A stretch of 9,102 bases of DNA from an uncultured Gilliamella sp. (lineage in GTDB: Bacteria > Pseudomonadota > Gammaproteobacteria > Enterobacterales > Enterobacteriaceae): positions 1 to 9,102 of the forward strand of contig CALYQY010000086.1 in the NCBI GenBank assembly GCA_945291235.1, in the 5' to 3' direction. Positions within the stretch are counted from its first letter, which is position 1. Each line of letters starts with the position of its first letter. The translations under genes and the position numbers were made by a program. The notes below the pieces were generated by a model. The model saw only the letters and a list, made by a program, of their open reading frames with translations. It did not search any database and was not told the origin of the DNA. Shown here in pieces: positions 907-8,581 of the stretch.

Positions 907-928
907 TTTTATGATCTAACTCACAAAA
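907..928 (+). promoter_or_regulatory. CRP (cAMP receptor protein)-like binding site
   Basis: The core reads TATGA-TCTAAC-TCACA (910-925), against the CRP consensus TGTGA-N6-TCACA: nine of ten core bases match. The flanks are TTT before and AAA after (the consensus is AAA/TTT, so the flanks match only in being AT-rich). It lies within a perfect 10+10 inverted repeat, TGTTAATTTT (900-909) and AAAATTAACA (925-934), whose centre nearly coincides with that of the CRP site. A CRP site is what one expects for a carbon-catabolic operon in a gammaproteobacterium. The distance to a start site is unknown because no clear -10 is seen. Confidence 0.6.
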
Positions 929-1092: not shown

Positions 1093-1452
1093 ATGCTAGT
1101 GGTTATGACTCAAATAAAATTTCGCATGATCGAAGATGATCTGACGCTTGAAGAGGTGACAGAAAACACAATCAACATTATTAATACTTGGTTAGCTGAG
1201 CATCAAATTGTACAAAATGAGGTGCAAAAATTGATGCTCTATTCCCATATTAAATCCATGGTTCAACGGGCTAAAACTTTAGAACAATTACCTGAACTCG
1301 ATCTCACTTTATTTGACCAACTATCTGAAGAGTCCTTAGCGTTAGCGCAAAAAACAGTAAATTTATTCGATAATTTACCAATAGAAGAAGCATATTTATT
1401 GGCTATTCACTATGACGTAGCCAAAGCAAATGAATCGATAAACAAAAATTAA
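1093..1452 (+). CDS. Stand-alone PRD-domain protein (EF_0829/AHA_3910-type)
   Basis: A 119-residue protein consisting of almost nothing but one PTS-regulation domain. PRDs are normally paired modules in regulators such as BglG or LicR, where histidines are phosphorylated by HPr or PTS enzymes. Both conserved PRD histidine positions are present: H52 in LYSHIKSMVQR and H106 in YLLAIHYDV. There is no DNA- or RNA-binding segment, signal peptide or membrane helix, so it should be cytoplasmic and is not a transcription factor by itself. It is the first gene of the cluster, 26 bases before the SFCGS gene. The start is uncertain: ATG 1093 and ATG 1105 are in frame and neither has a good ribosome-binding site; 1105 gives a 115-residue form starting MTQIKF. 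Small PRD proteins like this are found at the head of the same cluster in other bacteria. A role as phosphorylatable sensor or EIIA-like partner is inference. Confidence 0.85.
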   Translation: MLVVMTQIKFRMIEDDLTLEEVTENTINIINTWLAEHQIVQNEVQKLMLYSHIKSMVQRAKTLEQLPELDLTLFDQLSEESLALAQKTVNLFDNLPIEEAYLLAIHYDVAKANESINKN

Positions 1453-1478
1453 AAAAATAAATGGAAAGGAGAAACATT

Positions 1479-1847
1479 ATGGCTCAAGTGATCATTGTAA
1501 TAGGCGATCGAATGGGAAAAGGACAAAAAATTGCCCAAGGCATTAATTCGGTAGAAGGCTGCCAAGCAATTGTGATCCCCGGTATGGCAGCCGATATGAA
1601 ATTGGGAGATGTGATGAATCAAGAAAATGCCGATTTAGGTCTTTCATTTTGTGGTAGTGGTGGGGCAGGCGCAATTACCGCCCAAAATAAATATGGTTAT
1701 ACCCAACGTCATGGAATGCGTTCGATTGAAGAAGGAGAAACGGCAATCAATGATGGCTGTAAAGTGCTGGGTTTTGGTTTTATGGATACCGAAGAATTAG
1801 GGCAACGTATCGCCAAAGCATTTTTGAAAAAAAATCCTCGTGAGTAA
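1479..1847 (+). CDS. SFCGS-family glycine-rich protein
   Basis: A 122-residue soluble protein with the family-naming motif S-F-C-G-S at residues 56-60. The start is ATG 1479, because AAGGAG (1466-1471) sits 7 bases before it; the in-frame ATG at 1461 overlaps that site and is rejected. The family has no assigned function and occurs with DUF4310/4311/4312 and DgaE/DgaF-type genes. Reading the sequence, I note a resemblance to RpiB/LacAB sugar-phosphate isomerases. An N-terminal VIIVIGDRMG resembles their phosphate/substrate loop with an Asp (D10). CGSG at 58-61 followed by AITAQNK (65-71) matches their CGTG...SIAANK loop, whose Cys is the catalytic base. KVLGFG (95-100) and ELGQRIAKAFL (106-116) match their VLAFG and final helix. 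It is about 25 residues shorter than RpiB. An EIIB-like role for Cys58 is the alternative. Family call firm; fold and activity inferred. Confidence 0.9.
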   Translation: MAQVIIVIGDRMGKGQKIAQGINSVEGCQAIVIPGMAADMKLGDVMNQENADLGLSFCGSGGAGAITAQNKYGYTQRHGMRSIEEGETAINDGCKVLGFGFMDTEELGQRIAKAFLKKNPRE

Positions 1848-1861
1848 AAGGGCGCATCAGC

Positions 1862-2158
1862 ATGAAACAAAATCAACAGCAAATAGTAAGAGTAAGTGGT
1901 CAAGGTGATTCTAAGCAACGTGCATTTGCTAATGCATTAAGTCAGGTACAAAAACAGGTGCTTAAAAATTCATCCAATATGATGTTGCGTATAGAGCCGC
2001 TGAATATTCAAATCGTATCAGCAATAAAGAATATCACCACAGAACGATTTTTATTTATCTTTTTACCCAGAAAAAAGGCCATTTATGACATTACACTCGA
2101 TGTGGCTGTTGATGTTTGTTTTGTTGATTTAAGTCATATTGAATTTACTTCTCAATAA
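1862..2158 (+). CDS. DUF4312 family protein
   Basis: A 98-residue protein with no signal peptide. It opens with a strand-turn-helix pattern (IVRVSGQGDSKQRAFANAL, residues 8-26), continues through VQKQVL, and ends with two strand-like hydrophobic segments (RFLFIFLPRK, residues 61-70, and YDITLDVAVDVCFVDL, 74-89). It looks like a small soluble alpha/beta protein, not a membrane protein. The length and position between the SFCGS gene and the DUF4311 gene fit DUF4312 (EF_0831/AHA_3912-type). It starts 14 bases after the previous stop codon with AAAGGG (1847-1852) as a moderate ribosome-binding site 9 bases upstream. The function of the family is unknown; constant linkage to the two membrane proteins suggests a cytoplasmic subunit of the same complex. 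I found no catalytic motif. Confidence 0.85.
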   Translation: MKQNQQQIVRVSGQGDSKQRAFANALSQVQKQVLKNSSNMMLRIEPLNIQIVSAIKNITTERFLFIFLPRKKAIYDITLDVAVDVCFVDLSHIEFTSQ

Positions 2159-2174
2159 CAAAAAAAGGAAAGTT

Positions 2175-2927
2175 ATGGAAATTCTCATCATTGCATTTAA
2201 GTCAATCATTATTGGTGGACTTTGTGGTTTAGGGGTTGGAGCCGGGGCGGCAAGGATGTTTCACGCCCCAACTTATCAAGGTATGGGGGCATTTCGGACA
2301 TTGGGTGAGCTCAACGCTTGTGAAGGCGATCCGGCTGCGCATTTTTCATTTGGTTTAGGGTTCTTTTTTAATGCCTGGGCATCATCCGTTGCCGCAGGTT
2401 CGTTTACCCAAGATGTTGATCATCGCATTATTCCAAACTGGGGCGCCGCTTTATTGATGATTAAAAATCGTAATCTTGCCGAAACGTTGCATGATCCTAA
2501 AAAAATGGCCATTGCCTGCGCAATCATCGGCATGATAGTGGTGCTGTTTTTAAATACAACAACATCGGTTATTCCCGATTCGTTAAAGATAACTGCCACA
2601 AAAGTTCTTGTGCCTGCTGCCAATTTGCTAGTTGCAACAGTGATGCCGGTTATTTTCTGGCTGGCAGCTTTAGATGCAGGGCGACGTAGTGGATTTTGGG
2701 GAACATTATTTGGTGGTCTGGCACAGTTAATTATGGGCAATGCCGTTCCCGGTCTGGTGTTAGGCATACTTATCGGTAAAGGTGTCGATGATAGTGGTTG
2801 GAATCGAATGATGAAAATTATGTTAATTGCTGTCATTTTGCTATTTGTGATGAGTGGCTACTTCCGGGGCTTTGATATGAAGATGATAAACGCATTTAGC
2901 GACGGTTTATCTTATTGGTTTAAATAA
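2175..2927 (+). CDS. DUF4311 membrane protein, putative transporter subunit
   Basis: A 250-residue polytopic membrane protein. The start is ATG 2175, with AGGAA a few bases upstream (2166-2170); a longer frame from 2139 overlaps the previous gene, lacks a ribosome-binding site and adds a polar N-terminus. Hydrophobic segments lie near residues 3-25, 57-75, 110-130, 142-165, 175-200 and 212-230. Notable polar or glycine-rich parts are GGLCGLGVGAGAARMF (14-29), GELNACEGDPAAHFSFG (44-60), SFTQDVDHRIIPNWGAAL (76-93) and LDAGRRSGFWG (166-176). The acidic, His- and Cys-containing segment 44-60 could be substrate- or ion-binding. It matches DUF4311 in length, context and overall pattern (EF_0832/AHA_3913-type). 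No match to a classical PTS EIIC or other named transporter is evident. It is followed after 14 bases by the DUF4310 gene, and the two presumably form one inner-membrane complex. Transport is inferred from topology and context. Confidence 0.87.
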   Translation: MEILIIAFKSIIIGGLCGLGVGAGAARMFHAPTYQGMGAFRTLGELNACEGDPAAHFSFGLGFFFNAWASSVAAGSFTQDVDHRIIPNWGAALLMIKNRNLAETLHDPKKMAIACAIIGMIVVLFLNTTTSVIPDSLKITATKVLVPAANLLVATVMPVIFWLAALDAGRRSGFWGTLFGGLAQLIMGNAVPGLVLGILIGKGVDDSGWNRMMKIMLIAVILLFVMSGYFRGFDMKMINAFSDGLSYWFK

Positions 2928-2941
2928 TATAGGAAATGATT

Positions 2942-3595
2942 ATGAATACACAAACAGCACTAAATAAAAGTTTCTGGTATGCCGATTGGTCGTTTCCTAT
3001 TCTTTGTGGATTATTATCCGCCGGAATTTTTGCCGGGACACATACCTTTTATGTTTATGGTATCGGCGCTTTTAACGAAATTGCCTTTGTTGCCATGCTC
3101 AAATCGGGTATGAGCACCGGGGATTATGGTGCAGTGGCCGCATTTGGGGCAAGTTTTTTATTTGCTCGTGTGATTGAAAGCTCTTTAGTTGGCATACTCG
3201 ATATAGGTGGCGCTTTACAAACCGGTATTGGGCTTGGCGTACCCGCCTTATTATTGGCCGGTGGTTATACACTACCCATTGAAAACTTCTTTATCGCTTT
3301 AGTAACTGGCTTCGTGTTAGGCGCCTTAATTGGTTTAGTTATCATTTTGATCCGAAAATTCACCATTAACAGCGCTGGTGGTTCAACTTTTGGCGCTGAT
3401 GTCATGATGGGGGCGGGTAATGCTTCGGGGCGTTTTTTAGGACCAATGATTATTTTATCTGCAATGGCTGCTTCTATTCCAATTGGCATAGGGTCTTTAC
3501 TAGGCGCACTCATTTTCTATATTTGGAAAAAGCCAATTACTGGTGGCGCAATTTTAGGTGCGATGATTTTCGGTGGAATATTTCCTATTGTCTGA
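2942..3595 (+). CDS. DUF4310 membrane protein, putative transporter subunit
   Basis: A 217-residue polytopic inner-membrane protein. ATG 2942 is chosen over the in-frame ATG at 2936 because AGGAA (2931-2935) would touch the latter but is 6 bases from 2942. Hydrophobic segments lie near residues 17-38, 63-80, 86-108, 114-137, 165-193 and 200-216. Between the fourth and fifth is a conserved-looking loop, GGSTFGADVMMGAGNASGRFLGP (146-168), rich in Gly, Asn and Asp, which could line a substrate path. Other features are a short N-terminal FWYADWSFP motif (11-19) and FNEIAFV (44-50). Length, gene order and sequence character fit DUF4310 (EF_0833/AHA_3914-type). Family function is unknown. Pairing with DUF4311 resembles the two-subunit membrane parts of mannose-family PTS systems in layout only; I see no direct sequence match. 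Confidence 0.87.
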   Translation: MNTQTALNKSFWYADWSFPILCGLLSAGIFAGTHTFYVYGIGAFNEIAFVAMLKSGMSTGDYGAVAAFGASFLFARVIESSLVGILDIGGALQTGIGLGVPALLLAGGYTLPIENFFIALVTGFVLGALIGLVIILIRKFTINSAGGSTFGADVMMGAGNASGRFLGPMIILSAMAASIPIGIGSLLGALIFYIWKKPITGGAILGAMIFGGIFPIV

Positions 3596-3604
3596 TGTTA
3601 ACTC

Positions 3605-3633
3605 TCCGCTGTCGTTGGTTAAATTACAGCGGA
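3605..3633 (+). other. Intercistronic hairpin between transporter and enzyme genes
   Basis: A perfect 8-bp inverted repeat, TCCGCTGT (3605-3612) and ACAGCGGA (3626-3633), encloses a 13-base loop. It starts 9 bases after the DUF4310 stop and ends 3 bases before GGAA (3637-3640), the probable ribosome-binding site of the metallohydrolase gene at ATG 3647. It is not followed by a T-run (TTTGG), so it is not a classical terminator. It is better read as an mRNA stability, processing or translation-control element that could set different levels for the membrane and enzyme parts of the operon. Confidence 0.55.
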
Positions 3634-3646
3634 TTTGGAACAACGT

Positions 3647-4801
3647 ATGTATGATTTAATAATAAAAAATGCCAAACTCATTGATGAGACGTGTGTCGAT
3701 ATCGCTATAGAACAAAGTCAAATTGCTGAGATTGCAAATTCGATTTTAGCTCGATCAAAACGGGTGTTGGATCTACGCAATAAACACTATATCAGTGCCG
3801 GTTGGATCGATTCACATACGCATTGCTTTGCGCATTCACCTATCTATTATGACGAACCTGATTTAATTGGTATAAAAGCCGGCGTGACATCGGTCATTGA
3901 TGCCGGGAGTGTCGGCGCGCTTGATGTGGCTGAATTTTATCAATTAGCCAGACAAGCACATACCCATGTTTACTCATTTTTGAATATATCCAAAATTGGC
4001 TTAATAACGCAAAGTGAACTTGCCAATATGGATAATATTGATGCGCTTTTATTTGAACAAGCATTAATAAAATATCCTGATTTTGTGGTCGGAATCAAAG
4101 TAAGGATGAGCCGGAGTGTGGTGGATGAAAATGGTATTGAACCTTTAATTAAAGCCAAAAAGATCCAAAAAAAATGTAGCTTACCGTTGATGATTCATAT
4201 TGGCAACAATCCACCCGATCTGGATGAGATCGCCGATTTATTGACGGAAGGTGACATTATTACTCACTGTTTTAATGGTAAGCCTAATCAAATCCTTGAT
4301 AAGAACAATAATTTACGGGGTTCGATTAAATCCGCTATTAAACGTGGCGTGATTTTAGATATTGGTCATGGTGGCGAAAGTTTTAGTTTTGCCGTTGCTG
4401 AGCGGGCGAAAAGTTTAGGTATTTACCCTAATACCATAAGTTCAGATATCTATGCGAAAAATCGCTTACATGGCCCGGTAGTGAGTTTGGCAAATATTAT
4501 GACCAAATTTATCGCGCTAAATTACAGTAAAAAACGAATTATTGATAGTGTAACGGTAAATCCAGCGCAGATCTTACATCTCAAAAATAAAGGTCTTATC
4601 GCGGTGGGATATGATGCTGATTTAACTATTTTTGATATTAAACAGCAAGCAACCTCATTATCAGATGCACATGGTGAGGTACGACAAAGTCAAGAACAGT
4701 TTGTTCCGTTAGCTTCCATTGTTGCTGATGTTGCAAAAGATGATATACATATACAAATCACGCAAGAAGGTAGTAAAAATGAGCTTAGAATCTCCAGCTA
4801 A
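3647..4801 (+). CDS. Amidohydrolase/deacetylase family metallohydrolase (EF_0837-type)
   Basis: A 384-residue cytoplasmic enzyme of the amidohydrolase superfamily (cog3964 type). A binuclear metal site can be traced: H57 and H59 in DSHTH, the bridging lysine K151 in GIKVRMS (normally carboxylated), H184 in MIHIG, H207 in THCFNG and the catalytic D267 in SSDIYA. All expected ligands are present, so the enzyme should be active. The N-terminal MYDLIIKNAKLID and C-terminal VGYDADLTIFD form the small beta-sandwich domain usual for the superfamily. I chose ATG 3647 with GGAA at 3637-3640; a TTG start at 3635 would overlap that site. Some relatives hydrolyse acetylated hydroxy acids such as acetyl-(R)-mandelate, and none of this operon type has a firm substrate known to me. 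Next to an ammonia-lyase and a KDGP aldolase, removal of an acyl group from, or ring opening of, an amino-sugar acid is the natural inference. Its end overlaps the next gene by 23 bases. Confidence 0.9.
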   Translation: MYDLIIKNAKLIDETCVDIAIEQSQIAEIANSILARSKRVLDLRNKHYISAGWIDSHTHCFAHSPIYYDEPDLIGIKAGVTSVIDAGSVGALDVAEFYQLARQAHTHVYSFLNISKIGLITQSELANMDNIDALLFEQALIKYPDFVVGIKVRMSRSVVDENGIEPLIKAKKIQKKCSLPLMIHIGNNPPDLDEIADLLTEGDIITHCFNGKPNQILDKNNNLRGSIKSAIKRGVILDIGHGGESFSFAVAERAKSLGIYPNTISSDIYAKNRLHGPVVSLANIMTKFIALNYSKKRIIDSVTVNPAQILHLKNKGLIAVGYDADLTIFDIKQQATSLSDAHGEVRQSQEQFVPLASIVADVAKDDIHIQITQEGSKNELRISS

Positions 4802-5918
4802 AAAAGATGTTTATGGTCAATATCACTTAAAAAAAGTGATTAATGCTTCAGGACGTATGACAATATTGGGTGTTTCAACACCAAGACCGGAAGTGGTCGA
4901 AACTGTCTCGCAAGGATTAAATGAATATTTTGAAATTAAAGATTTGATTGATAAAACAGGGCAATATATTGCGTGTTTACTCAATGTTGAAAATGCAGTT
5001 GTGGTATCTTGTGCGTCTGCCGGTATTGCACAGGCTGTTGCCGGTTTGATTGTGAAAGATGATCGTGATCTGTTATTTAATTTACATTCATCGACTAAAA
5101 ATGTTCCTCGTGAAATCATTGTAGCAAAAGGGCATAACGTTAATTTTGGTGCACCGATTGGCACCATGGTTGCATTAGGTGGGGGAGTGGTCGTTGAAGC
5201 CGGTTATGCTAATGAGTGTGATGCTGACCATATTGCCTCACTGATTAATGTTAATACTGCTGCTATTTTATATGTTAAATCACATCACTGCGTCCAAAAA
5301 AGTATGCTGTCAGTTACGCAGGCGGCAGCTGTAGCCCAAAAATATCAGATCCCTTTAATTGTTGATGCCGCAGCTGAGGAAGATTTAGTGACCTATTATC
5401 AGCAAGGCGCTGATATTGTGATTTATAGCGGAGCTAAAGCAATTGAGGGGCCAACTAGTGGATTGGCCATTGGTCGGTATCAAGCTATCGAATGGTTAAA
5501 GCGTCAGTCAGAAGGCATCGGCCGACCAATGAAAGTGGGTAAAGAAGGTATTTTGGGCTTAACTCGAGCCATTGAGCTTTATATTAACGACCCCAAACAT
5601 GAAACCGGGCAGCAAATGGTTAGCAAAATGCAGCCTTTTATTGAAAAACTCAATGCGCTTAATGGAATATCGGCCAAAGTGGTTTGGGATAGTGCCGGCC
5701 GGGATATTGCCAGAGCCGAAATCGCTTTTGATGCTAAAGTGATAGGCAAAACAGCAATTGAAATGGTTGATTTAATGAAACAAGGTGATATTGCCGTCTA
5801 TTTCAGACAATACAAAGCCAATGAAGGCAAAGTTGATGCTGATGTAAGAAGTGTAACATCCGCGCAACTCGATACGATTTACCACAAAATTAAAAATATT
5901 ATTCAAGGAGTAGAATAA
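4779..5918 (+). CDS. dgaE: DgaE-like PLP-dependent ammonia-lyase (SelA-related)
   Basis: A 379-residue fold-type I PLP enzyme of the SelA-related group. Visible marks are INASGRMTILG (21-31), VENAVVVSCASAGIAQA (70-86, cofactor phosphate region), D196 in IVDAAAEED (pyridine-nitrogen Asp) and K220 in YSGAKAIEGP, the Schiff-base lysine. In Salmonella DgaE converts D-glucosaminate 6-phosphate to 2-keto-3-deoxygluconate 6-phosphate plus ammonia; the next gene encodes the matching aldolase, so the same kind of alpha,beta-elimination is likely. The exact substrate here may differ, since the Salmonella dga PTS genes are absent and a metallohydrolase precedes it. The start is ATG 4779 with AGAAGG 8 bases upstream (4765-4770); it overlaps the metallohydrolase gene by 23 bases. 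A longer in-frame opening from 4719 has no ribosome-binding site. The stop TAA overlaps the ATG of the next gene by one base (TAATG), indicating translational coupling. Confidence 0.9.
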   Translation: MSLESPAKKDVYGQYHLKKVINASGRMTILGVSTPRPEVVETVSQGLNEYFEIKDLIDKTGQYIACLLNVENAVVVSCASAGIAQAVAGLIVKDDRDLLFNLHSSTKNVPREIIVAKGHNVNFGAPIGTMVALGGGVVVEAGYANECDADHIASLINVNTAAILYVKSHHCVQKSMLSVTQAAAVAQKYQIPLIVDAAAEEDLVTYYQQGADIVIYSGAKAIEGPTSGLAIGRYQAIEWLKRQSEGIGRPMKVGKEGILGLTRAIELYINDPKHETGQQMVSKMQPFIEKLNALNGISAKVVWDSAGRDIARAEIAFDAKVIGKTAIEMVDLMKQGDIAVYFRQYKANEGKVDADVRSVTSAQLDTIYHKIKNIIQGVE

Positions 5919-6658
5919 TGAAGCTAATGCCGAATTATTATCATGACCGAGTTTGTTTGAATGTGTTGGCTAATTCAATTGACAATGCCAAAGCTATTTA
6001 TGAAGCAGCACAAACGCATGTAGTAGTTGGTATCTTATCTAAAAACTATAAAGATAACCAATCAGCGATCGATGATATGAAACAATATGCCAAAGCTATC
6101 GATAACGCGATTTCTATCGGCCTTGGTGCCGGTGATCCTAACCAATCAACCATGGTTTCACAACTATCAGCGGCGCTACAGCCACAACATGTAAATCAAG
6201 TGTTTACAGGTGTGGCAACGAGTCGAGCATTATTAGGTCAACAGCAGACCGTGATTAATGGTTTAGTGTCGCCAACCGGTCAAGTCGGGCTGATGAATAT
6301 CGCAACCGGCCCATTAAGCTGCCACTCACCAGCGGCAATTGTGCCTGTTGAAACAGCGATTGCTTTATTAAAAGATATGGGCGGAAGTTCAATTAAATAC
6401 TTTCCTATGGGAGGCTTAAAGCATCAGGATGAATTTGAATATGTGGCAAAATGTTGTGCTGAACACAATTTCTATCTTGAACCAACCGGCGGTATTGACT
6501 TAAACAATTATGAAGCGATCATGAAAATAGCATTAAATGCCGGCGTGAAAAAAATCATCCCGCATATTTATAGCGCAATTATCGACAAAACCATAGGTGC
6601 CACCCGTACCGATGATGTCAAACAACTGTTGGCGATGACGCAAAAATTAGTAGGATAG
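5918..6658 (+). CDS. dgaF: DgaF-like 2-dehydro-3-deoxy-phosphogluconate (KDGP) aldolase
   Basis: A 246-residue TIM-barrel-type aldolase of the KDGP aldolase family (formerly DUF1341; EF_0839/AHA_3917-type). It should cleave 2-keto-3-deoxy-6-phosphogluconate to pyruvate and glyceraldehyde 3-phosphate in the cytoplasm. The likely Schiff-base lysine is K160 in SSIKYFPMGG, with EPTGGIDL (188-195) as the phosphate-binding turn near the end of the barrel; GLGAGDPNQ (68-76) and NIATGPLSCHSPAA (127-140) are further glycine-rich active-site loops. The start ATG 5918 is preceded by AAGGAG (5905-5910) 7 bases upstream and overlaps the DgaE stop by one base. It is unrelated in detail to the short Eda-type aldolases but performs the same chemistry. 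The regulator gene begins immediately after its stop codon. The pairing with the DgaE-like enzyme supports the assignment; substrate stereochemistry is not deducible. Confidence 0.9.
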   Translation: MKLMPNYYHDRVCLNVLANSIDNAKAIYEAAQTHVVVGILSKNYKDNQSAIDDMKQYAKAIDNAISIGLGAGDPNQSTMVSQLSAALQPQHVNQVFTGVATSRALLGQQQTVINGLVSPTGQVGLMNIATGPLSCHSPAAIVPVETAIALLKDMGGSSIKYFPMGGLKHQDEFEYVAKCCAEHNFYLEPTGGIDLNNYEAIMKIALNAGVKKIIPHIYSAIIDKTIGATRTDDVKQLLAMTQKLVG

Positions 6659-6661
6659 GTG

Positions 6662-8581
6662 ATGACATCTAACATGATGTTTTCTTATCAACGATTAGTC
6701 TATTTGTTTGATACGATAAAAAATGAGACGCTACCTCAAAAAGAGTTAGCGAATCGTTTTTCGGTATCAACGCGTACTATTCGAACCGATATTGCAGCGC
6801 TTAATGATATATTAGCTAACTATGGTGCTCAAATTCAGTACACCAAAAATCTGGGTTATCAACTTGTTGTATCAGATCCTGTTTGTTATGCAACGCTTCC
6901 GATAGTGCCTTCAACAAAACAGCTACCACGTACCAGTAAAGAAAGATTTTCAGCCCTGCTTATTGCCTTTTTAACTCAACCTCACGCAGTAAAATTGGAT
7001 GATATTGCAGATAAATGGTTTTTAAGCCGCAGCACGTTACAAAATGACATTCTTGAAATAAAACAGTATTTAGATAAGTATAATCTATCACTCGAAAATC
7101 GCCCGTATTACGGATTGCGTTTGGTTGGCGATGAGTCATCAATACGTGCATGTTTAACCGACATTATATGGCAACGCCATTTGGCGCAAGACCTCATCAC
7201 TGTTGAAAGGCTTAAACAAATAATTTTAAATGATATTGATTTAAACTATCTGGAAAAAGTGTTACAAAATCAGTTTGAGCGTTTTGAATTAAAGTTAACG
7301 GCGGAAGGTCAGAGCTATTTACTCTATAGTTGTGCGGTATCGATAACTCGTATCACACAAATGCATGAGTTAATTGAATATCAGGTCGATAAGATTAATT
7401 CAACCGTGATTGGCGCAGCCAGAGAAATATCAGAAGAGTTCTCCCATTTTTTAGGCAACCCACTCGGTGAAGCGGAGTTTAATTATCTGTGTGTTCAAAT
7501 TATTTCACGCACCATGACCGAATCACCCAATCAAGCCAAAAGTTTAGCGCTGGTTGAACATATCTTATCTTATATCAATGATTGTTATCACTATAATTTA
7601 CGGGAGGACAACAAGTTACGGCAAGATCTCCTTATTCATATCTCCTCAATGTTATCAAGGATACAGTATCAAATAAGAGCGACCAATCCCTTATTGGATG
7701 AAATTAAACAGTATTATCCTTTTGCTTATGATATTACGCTTTCAGCATTGGCAAATACTAAAAACTATACTCAAGCAAAAATGACCGAAGATGAAATAAG
7801 TTATCTAGCGGTACATATTGGCGTGGCTTTAGAGCGTAATTACAGTGCCGGGCATGCACGATTTGCGCAAATTTTGCTGGTCAGCGAGCTTGGTAATGCC
7901 ACTTTGCGGATGATTGAATCAAAAATTAAGCGGGATTTTCCCCATATTCAAATTAGTCGCACGCTTTCATATCGTGAATATGAGCAACTGACAAAGGTAG
8001 AAGAAGACTTCGTTGTATCCACCGTTCGTTTGACCGAAAAAGATAAACCGATTGTTAAAATTGCGCCTTTCCCAACGGCTTACCAACTTGAACAGCTCGG
8101 GCGGTTGGCGATGATTGATCGCACTATGCCTTATATCATAGAGCGATTTTTCGATGAAAAATTCTTTTTTATTATCGATGAGCCAATGACACAAAAAACA
8201 CTGTTTGACCAAGTATGCGCAAAATTAGTTCAACAAGGGTATGTTGATAGCGATTTTTATCCGTCGGTTGTTGAACGTGAAAAAATTGTTTCAACTCTAT
8301 TGGGAGAAAACATCGCCATACCTCACTCAGTAGGATTACTGGCCAGAAAAACCGTTGTCACAACGATTTTGGCGCCACAAGGCATTGTCTGGAATAAAAA
8401 CGAAGTAGCGCATGTCATTTTTTTATTGGCGATCAGCAAAGATGAGTATGAAGATGCGATGCGCATTTATAATCTATTTGTTAACTTTGTAAAAGAGAAA
8501 GCGACTAAGCGCTTGCTAGATAGTCAAAACTTTGACGATTTTACGGCAATTGTAAAAGATAGTTTTGGACGATTATCATAA
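6662..8581 (+). CDS. PRD/EIIA-containing transcription regulator (LicR/MtlR-type, BglG superfamily)
   Basis: About 640 residues. Numbering here counts from a possible GTG at 6659; ATG 6662 is one codon later and preferred, since AGGAT (6652-6656) is upstream. Domain order: winged helix HTH_11 (8-70, with KELANRFSVSTRTIRTDI), second Mga-like HTH (95-160, DKWFLSRSTLQNDI), PRD1 (about 190-285), PRD2 (about 295-395), EIIB-like (400-490) and EIIA fructose/mannitol type (about 510-635). It binds DNA, not RNA: there is no CAT antiterminator domain. PRD2 keeps both histidines (H327 in LLIHISS, H386 in YLAVHIG), but PRD1 has S224 and Q280 there. The EIIB-like domain has S409 where the phospho-cysteine would be (ILLVSELG). 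EIIA keeps its active-site H556 in IAIPH. It abuts the DgaF stop codon, so it is co-transcribed and probably controls the cluster, most likely as an activator. No clear terminator follows. The signal and binding site are unknown. Confidence 0.92.
   Translation: MTSNMMFSYQRLVYLFDTIKNETLPQKELANRFSVSTRTIRTDIAALNDILANYGAQIQYTKNLGYQLVVSDPVCYATLPIVPSTKQLPRTSKERFSALLIAFLTQPHAVKLDDIADKWFLSRSTLQNDILEIKQYLDKYNLSLENRPYYGLRLVGDESSIRACLTDIIWQRHLAQDLITVERLKQIILNDIDLNYLEKVLQNQFERFELKLTAEGQSYLLYSCAVSITRITQMHELIEYQVDKINSTVIGAAREISEEFSHFLGNPLGEAEFNYLCVQIISRTMTESPNQAKSLALVEHILSYINDCYHYNLREDNKLRQDLLIHISSMLSRIQYQIRATNPLLDEIKQYYPFAYDITLSALANTKNYTQAKMTEDEISYLAVHIGVALERNYSAGHARFAQILLVSELGNATLRMIESKIKRDFPHIQISRTLSYREYEQLTKVEEDFVVSTVRLTEKDKPIVKIAPFPTAYQLEQLGRLAMIDRTMPYIIERFFDEKFFFIIDEPMTQKTLFDQVCAKLVQQGYVDSDFYPSVVEREKIVSTLLGENIAIPHSVGLLARKTVVTTILAPQGIVWNKNEVAHVIFLLAISKDEYEDAMRIYNLFVNFVKEKATKRLLDSQNFDDFTAIVKDSFGRLS

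Follow-up and report, generated by a model that had tools for sequence, protein, structure and literature searches.

We describe a nine-gene operon on the forward strand of contig CALYQY010000086.1 (assembly GCA_945291235.1) of an uncultured Gilliamella sp., at positions 1093-8581 of the 9,102-nt stretch of DNA analyzed here (the window). The operon is real, its gene set is not new, and it probably takes up and degrades an acetylated amino-sugar acid. Its sequences partly support a catabolic operon with an importer of a new type. We tentatively propose, at slightly less than even confidence, that the SFCGS, DUF4312, DUF4311, and DUF4310 proteins form a phosphorylating importer, similar to those of the phosphotransferase system (PTS), for an N-acyl-2-amino-2-deoxyhexonate. 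This narrowing of the substrate class, together with indirect evidence that the importer may depend on the PTS and deliver phosphorylated cargo, extends a preliminary description of the window.

The nine genes are co-directional and tightly packed: in order, they are separated by 26, 14, 16, 8, and 39 bases, then overlap by 23 and 1 bases, and finally abut with a gap of 0, which bears out the earlier account of one strand with gaps or overlaps of under about 55 bases. The first gene encodes a stand-alone PRD-domain protein of the EF_0829/AHA_3910 family (1105..1452; TIGR03582, 107.7 bits, cut-off 69.4; alternative start 1093). It is followed by the SFCGS protein, a candidate EIIB-like phosphocarrier that may also be RpiB-like (1479..1847; TIGR03577/PF14272, 198.4 bits), the soluble DUF4312 protein (1862..2158; TIGR03578/PF14189, 117.4 bits), and two polytopic membrane proteins, both candidate permease subunits, of the DUF4311 (2175..2927; TIGR03580/PF14188, 460.8 bits) and DUF4310 (2936..3595; TIGR03579/PF14187, 359.3 bits) families, all over their NCBIfam cut-offs. 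The enzymes comprise an EF_0837-like amidohydrolase/deacetylase (3647..4801; TIGR03583, 515.9 bits, cut-off 432; alternative TTG start 3635), a DgaE-family pyridoxal phosphate (PLP)-dependent ammonia-lyase (4779..5918; TIGR01437, 549.4 bits, over cut-off), and a DgaF-family 2-keto-3-deoxy-6-phosphogluconate aldolase (5918..6658; TIGR03581, 392.4 bits; NF047796, 381.3 bits, cut-off 300). A transcriptional regulator with helix-turn-helix, Mga, PRD, and EIIA domains (6659..8581) closes the operon. Named NCBIfam models recognize eight of the nine products above their cut-offs; the regulator reaches no such cut-off and passes those of Pfam domains only. The likelier starts are at 1105 (PRD), 1479 (SFCGS), 2175 (DUF4311), 3647 (amidohydrolase), and 4779 (DgaE); with the ATG at 3647, the 39-base gap between the DUF4310 and amidohydrolase genes grows to 51 bases. 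The GC content of the window (38.6%) and the closest DUF4310 proteins, which are those of Gilliamella (92%), fit the low-GC, host-associated type of gammaproteobacterium suggested beforehand.

Seven of the products are covered by the NCBIfam "hypothetical equivalog" models TIGR03577-TIGR03583, which are named after EF_0829-EF_0839 and AHA_3910-AHA_3917. These names, together with the loci that we found (the Aeromonas carriers among the 80 loci introduced below are L017, L024, and L065), agree with the preliminary description, which places the same set in Enterococcus and Aeromonas. That description counts five of the nine products in families of no known function; SFCGS and DUF4310-DUF4312 are hypothetical equivalogs without a function, whereas the PRD protein has a recognizable PRD domain. 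The window shares families and gene order with the EF/AHA cluster and passes the family models of the latter over curated cut-offs, in order. The Enterococcus faecalis version differs in that it adds an EIIC, a MupG, and a kinase and places the regulator first. In E. faecalis IDRL-9065, the DgaF gene (L081:17741-18483) matches in two pieces in different frames and looks frameshifted, and the other operon genes are annotated as intact. We found no paper on the function of the cluster among 5.39 million openly licensed papers, a collection that mostly leaves out the subscription literature. A possible role in amino-sugar metabolism and a possible contribution to fitness in nutrient medium have been proposed for EF0839 and EF2975 (PMC7701990), and a promoter fragment of either ef_0839 or ef_2975, which were not told apart, is active in urine (PMC2912369).

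Conservation of the cluster was assessed by scanning GTDB contigs with DUF4310, which yielded at least 423 confirmed relatives; the 80 best-scoring loci, all gammaproteobacterial by title, were analyzed. In all 80, the genes for PRD, SFCGS, DUF4312, DUF4311, DUF4310, amidohydrolase, DgaE, and DgaF follow one another in this order on one strand, and the regulator lies downstream in 79, the contig of L065 ending before the regulator position. In 33 of the 80 loci (e.g., L031:13781-14935), a PF10282 lactonase-like gene, whose product has a signal-peptide-like start as judged by eye, separates DgaF from the regulator; it is absent from the window. Outside the Gammaproteobacteria, the DUF module occurs in Bacilli (by protein names, with neighborhoods known from plasmid records only) and on plasmids of the alphaproteobacterium Bartonella; DUF4310 and DUF4311 had no relative among the viral contigs searched.

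Co-occurrence of the families, whose failure the preliminary description had named as one possible refutation, held in a sample of 148 genomes evenly drawn from one order, with its Klebsiella center included. Full-length DUF4310 and DUF4311 were each found in 14 genomes and SFCGS and DUF4312 in 13 each, with all four families full length together in 13. The 14th genome, G391, has DUF4310/DUF4311 at a contig edge. Genome G402 (L109:2236-5491) carries a deletion scar in which the start of SFCGS is fused to the end of DUF4310; in this decaying copy, the PRD gene is kept, DgaE is near full length, the amidohydrolase is in pieces, and DgaF and the regulator are partial. Since the four families share 13 genomes and the partial cases reflect a contig edge or a scar, the module appears to be gained and lost as a unit. 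Across the phylum it is rare (7 of 299 genomes, center included), and DUF4310 matched in none of 14 control genomes, which included E. coli. Among weaker candidates, a doubtful DUF4311 fragment with stops in G407 fell below the cut-off, and no convincing relative was found there; weak DUF4311 matches in G204 and G263 were dismissed as chance similarity, since they fall, as judged by eye, on a short membrane segment within a DnaJ/DjlA-like protein.

The route envisaged earlier, namely, hydrolysis, ammonia elimination, and an aldol cleavage that yields pyruvate and a triose phosphate, is supported by the family membership of the enzymes, by the equivalog cut-off passed by DgaF, and by the residues of D-glucosaminate-6-phosphate lyase (DGL) present in DgaE. 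The amidohydrolase is related to 2ICS and 8WZY (EF_0837 type), and its residues H61, H63, K155, H188, H211, and D271 (numbered from the start at 3635), kept in 84 of 84 sequences, are read as a putative metal site. A D-amino-acid-like N-acyl substrate would agree with what has been reported for enzymes of COG3964. DgaF, to which 3M0Z is related, lies above the cut-off of the DagF equivalog (NF047796), whereas DgaE, at 358.9 bits, lies below that of the D-glucosaminate-6-phosphate lyase equivalog (NF047797; 600), so that the same product formed from a somewhat different substrate appears likely. Alignment of 86 DgaE sequences to 7LC0 showed that His163, the PLP lysine, Arg301, Arg332, and Arg346 are kept in all of them and His162 in 84, with Ala in the two Bartonella sequences; at position 226, 24 sequences have Arg and 62 have Lys. 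According to PMC9529869, the three arginines of the solved lyase form a phosphate cluster for the substrate, placed by manual docking, and the catalytic lysine is numbered 217 (counted at 213 in the chain aligned here). The reaction outlined there would remove the C2 and C3 stereocenters, and several epimers could therefore feed DgaE.

Several features of the small and membrane proteins are compatible with a phosphorelay coupled to transport. SFCGS has one invariant cysteine, found in all 186 distinct sequences and located in the window at Cys58, in the loop motif SFCGSGGAG; it may play the part of a phosphocysteine, although sequence establishes no homology of SFCGS to EIIB. Two histidines of the stand-alone PRD protein are likewise invariant (83 of 83), and the histidine of the regulator's EIIA domain is kept in nearly all sequences. 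The invariant arginine cluster of DgaE would also suit a phosphorylated cargo. DUF4311 and DUF4310 each have five hydrophobic segments over threshold. The new transporter type with soluble partners suggested earlier is putative; sequence comparison places the membrane proteins in none of the known transporter families.

An indirect connection to the PTS comes from Bartonella. On plasmids of bat-feces Bartonella HY406 and HY761, the full cluster is followed, 64 bases after the regulator, by a gene for an HPr-Enzyme I (EI) fusion (L082:8047-10062 and L094:15405-17420). The fusion protein matches Pfam HPr and all three EI domains, and its HPr (LHARPA) and EI (GGATSH) motifs are intact. Downstream of the HPr-EI gene lie a small gene and then type VI secretion genes. 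In the eight carrier genomes tested, EI is encoded elsewhere in the genome in every case.

Of the comparisons made, the most informative was that of importers and kinases in operons that share these enzymes. In Escherichia coli MB53 and Lactobacillus paracasei, mannose-family PTS genes for IIA, IIB, IIC, and IID accompany DgaE and DgaF, with neither amidohydrolase nor kinase, and in Gammaproteobacteria and Bartonella, the DUF module accompanies the amidohydrolase, DgaE, and DgaF, again with no kinase. A Priestia plasmid combines the amidohydrolase, DgaE, and DgaF with a PfkB kinase, a GntR regulator, and a gluconate:H+ symporter. On Clostridioides difficile and Niallia plasmids, a lactose/cellobiose-type EIIC, a MupG-family hydrolase, the amidohydrolase, DgaE, and DgaF are joined by a kinase, the Niallia operon additionally holding a GntR-like gene inside it; here the EIIC-MupG PTS would attach phosphate to the partner sugar in a glycoside, and MupG would then cut the glycoside. 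Four operon-kinase queries matched none of the 80 gammaproteobacterial loci and neither of the two Bartonella stretches. Operons whose importer is unable to phosphorylate the hexonate itself have a kinase, and those in which a PTS imports the hexonate have none, which groups the gammaproteobacterial and Bartonella DUF operons with the PTS importers. Moreover, the PRD-SFCGS-DUF4312-DUF4311-DUF4310 genes occupy the place held by the mannose-family PTS in the E. coli dga operon, which argues for a PTS-like importer.

In the mechanism that we propose, DUF4311 and DUF4310 would form the membrane channel, and SFCGS would constitute a cytoplasmic phosphorelay in which DUF4312 and the PRD protein may also take part. 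Cys58 of SFCGS would serve as an EIIB-like phosphocysteine fed by EI and HPr through a histidine donor, either the EIIA domain of the regulator or the stand-alone PRD. With a channel working in this way, the cargo would arrive as a 6-phosphate, from which the amidohydrolase would strip the acyl group; DgaE would then eliminate ammonia to give 2-keto-3-deoxygluconate-6-phosphate, and DgaF would cleave the latter to pyruvate and glyceraldehyde-3-phosphate. The PRD/EIIA regulator would read the phosphorylation state and turn the operon on, the overall yield being catabolism of carbon and nitrogen.

A number of observations weigh against this proposal. DUF4312 has no invariant histidine or cysteine in the family alignments, and neither the 17 DUF4310 members nor the DUF4311 of the window gave a Pfam EIIC match; profiles of DUF4310 and DUF4311 found none of the EIIC and EIID proteins of E. 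coli MB53, L. paracasei, and E. faecalis at E values up to 50, profiles of 77% mean alignment identity being poorly suited to distant kinship. His556 of the regulator's EIIA domain, present in 81 of 82 sequences, is missing in E. faecalis. The arginine cluster of DgaE does not by itself establish a phosphorylated substrate, since it was placed by manual docking and is kept also in the kinase-bearing Niallia and E. faecalis operons. With 669 of 671 residues identical, the two Bartonella plasmids are closely related and their HPr-EI genes count as one event; moreover, the fusion could serve only the PRD/EIIA regulator. No EI gene lies beside the cluster in the 80 gammaproteobacterial loci, five of which have only a small HPr-like open reading frame downstream on the opposite strand; this is as expected if EI is encoded elsewhere but does not help the phosphorelay argument. 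The kinase contrast tracks a phylum boundary and rests on four kinase-bearing operons. E. faecalis combines the DUF module with the EIIC-MupG set and a kinase. Finally, KdgK is encoded elsewhere in the genome, over the equivalog cut-off, in 62 of 68 carriers tested (15 of 18 and 47 of 50; 12 of the 80 loci were left out), which makes phosphorylation after ammonia removal possible in most carriers.

The leading alternative, somewhat less likely than our proposal, is that the importer does not phosphorylate: DUF4310 and DUF4311 would be a secondary transporter with soluble accessories, the free N-acyl-aminohexonate would lose its acyl group and ammonia to become 2-keto-3-deoxygluconate, KdgK encoded elsewhere would phosphorylate this ahead of DgaF, and the PRD and EIIA domains would be regulatory only. 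The frequency of KdgK, the module-plus-kinase operon of E. faecalis, and the pairing of the same enzymes with a kinase in Priestia, Niallia, and C. difficile all speak for this alternative, and the marine ong pathway works in such a way with a sodium symporter (PMC9537276). However, six of the 68 carriers (G304, G004, G316, G317, G326, and G363) have no KdgK match over the cut-off, which suggests that a kinase in trans is not universal. These absences are uncertain because all six genomes are drafts: G304 is Gilliamella App6-5, in which KdgK fragments with a stop were found, G317 is a 1.3-Mb metagenome-assembled genome, and the remaining four are drafts of 4.0-5.3 Mb. The failure of the operon kinases to match in any of the 80 loci or in Bartonella, the dedicated HPr-EI, and the invariant SFCGS cysteine and PRD histidines in such small proteins also count against a non-phosphorylating importer. 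An improbable alternative is that the Bartonella HPr-EI feeds the regulator alone, for sensing sugar status through its PRD and EIIA domains, while the DUF module is an unrelated transporter. The conserved PRD and EIIA histidines of the regulator and the position of the HPr-EI gene directly behind it would fit, but a whole phosphoenolpyruvate (PEP) phosphotransferase for the regulation of one operon would seem costly, and without an EII its phosphorylation state would report nothing. Least probable, we think, is a membrane-bound enzyme complex of DUF4310, DUF4311, DUF4312, and SFCGS, in which SFCGS would isomerize the sugar acid in the manner of RpiB. This possibility draws on weak matches of SFCGS to LacAB_rpiB (29 of 37 members, best E 0.0022) and a match to RPI_actino of NCBI (E 0.00038). 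Members also match DUF2620, the YhfU family (20 of 37, best E 0.00031), though the unrelated Cecropin family likewise reaches 10 of 37 (best E 0.0032). Such a complex would leave the operon with no importer at all, even though the module sits where dga has its PTS permease and module-less operons have a symporter or an EIIC.

Should the phosphorylating importer prove correct, a more far-reaching version of it, which we regard as unlikely though worth stating, would be a new class of PEP-dependent permease, with a membrane pair unrelated in sequence to known EIIC and EIID, the RpiB-like SFCGS as the phosphocysteine EIIB, and the stand-alone PRD in place of EIIA. The PRD domain, so far described solely as accepting phosphate in regulation, would then act as a step in transport. 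More generally, the known PTS permeases fall into a small number of structural superfamilies, and a further one, present in Gammaproteobacteria, Bacilli, and an alphaproteobacterium, would be of fundamental interest for bacterial transport; four Pfam families as well as the hypothetical equivalogs of NCBI would also gain a function.

As for regulation, His327 and His386 in the PRD domains of the regulator are conserved in 82 of 82 sequences. Upstream of the operon, the palindrome TATGA-N6-TCACA (910..925; no strand), which has one mismatch to the CRP-like consensus TGTGA-N6-TCACA, is a candidate catabolite-control site. Within the whole window, CRP-like sites are a weak signal alone (6 at up to two mismatches against 4.2 expected). 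Across the upstream regions of the window and 79 loci (L024 was dropped as too short), a site with at most one mismatch occurs in 36 of 80, against 1.1 expected by mononucleotide shuffling, in regions that are related to one another; the Orbaceae account for 13 of these (out of 18 regions) and the other groups for 23 (out of 62). The palindrome fits a catabolic operon and no more than that.

As for the substrate, the simplest candidate by analogy would be N-acetyl-D-glucosaminate or its C2 or C3 epimer. Two features point to an aldonic acid: the Priestia operon pairs these enzymes with a gluconate-type symporter, and many of the gammaproteobacterial loci include a lactonase-like gene, which suggests supply as a lactone. 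In the marine ong pathway, N-acetyl-D-glucosaminate is deacetylated and deaminated to the same aldolase substrate (PMC9537276, PMC12017989). Two Aeromonas strains other than those of L017, L024, and L065 are described in PMC11653859 as having lytic polysaccharide monooxygenases (LPMOs) and only distant or no OngB and OngC matches, with the deacetylase and deaminase left open; the cluster is a candidate route for N-acetyl-aminohexonates in Aeromonas. LPMO genes (PF03067) occur in 5 of 14 carriers and in 32 of 134 other genomes, a difference short of significance (Fisher p 0.34), and the two Orbaceae carriers known in the sample, G309 and G313, are not among the genomes with a match. Chitin-derived N-acetyl-D-glucosaminate (GlcNAc1A) is consequently one candidate that is not singled out.

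The operon is flanked in the window by the 3' part of a gene (72-692) whose product is a membrane protein that has a TPM domain and a Gly/Ser-rich tail and, from 8821, by the start of a YceD-like gene; both resemble, by eye, the flanks of the Gilliamella locus L003.

Among known systems, the dga operon of E. coli and Salmonella has a DgaE-type lyase followed by a DagF-type aldolase, with the same chemistry expected, and importer genes at the same place. It differs in having a mannose-family PTS and DagR where the window has the DUF module and the PRD/EIIA regulator, in lacking the amidohydrolase, and in its lyase, the window DgaE falling below the dgaE equivalog cut-off. None of the nine window products gave a Pfam match to the mannose-family PTS, and Man IIA, IIB, IIC, and IID queries (phmmer, E 1e-6) found nothing in the 80 gammaproteobacterial loci or the two Bartonella stretches. 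DNA of the Klebsiella DgaE-DgaF pair matches 559 of 5426 E. coli genomes, in no case over 80% of the query; the 40 matches listed are all annotated as dgaE, 39 of them also with a dagF-type aldolase, and represent the ordinary dga operon. According to its annotation, the dga operon of strain E. coli MB53 has a frameshift in the gene for PTS IID (L100:4711-5569), and the dga-type operon with a mannose-family PTS on an L. paracasei plasmid (L104:4005-12880) adjoins its own rpoN and sigma-54 activator genes.

The ong system of Pseudoalteromonas and Vibrio shares the overall route, from an N-acetylated aminohexonate by deacetylation, deamination, and aldol cleavage to pyruvate and glyceraldehyde-3-phosphate. 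It relies instead on the fold-type III PLP deaminase OngC, the sodium symporter OngIT, and KdgK acting after deamination (PMC9537276). In the window, the lyase is related to SelA, the DUF module is present, and the operon contains no kinase, OngB and OngC being set apart by their family labels, and neither a sodium:solute (SSS) symporter nor KdgK is among the nine genes.

The yhfSTUVWXYZ operon of E. coli (L095:6936-14345), whose genes are annotated as uncharacterized or putative, offers a third comparison. A stand-alone PRD protein (YhfY) is likewise encoded there, as are the polytopic membrane protein YhfT, a PLP enzyme, a member of the phosphotriesterase family, and YhfU (DUF2620), which is possibly related to SFCGS and shares a C-x-[ST]-G motif with it. 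In contrast, its enzymes belong to other families, and YhfY, when aligned, keeps the first PRD histidine only. A reading of YhfT as a DUF4311-DUF4310 fusion found no support: hhalign gave no match and hmmsearch only E 48 with DUF4311 and none with DUF4310, at low alignment diversity. Kinship of YhfU and SFCGS is weakly supported, YhfU being the best non-family match in hmmsearch (E 0.014), with a hhalign E of 0.004 at a probability of 8.5% from low-diversity alignments. If the new permease class were real, YhfY, YhfU, and YhfT of E. coli would make up another system, diverged from this one but built along the same general lines.

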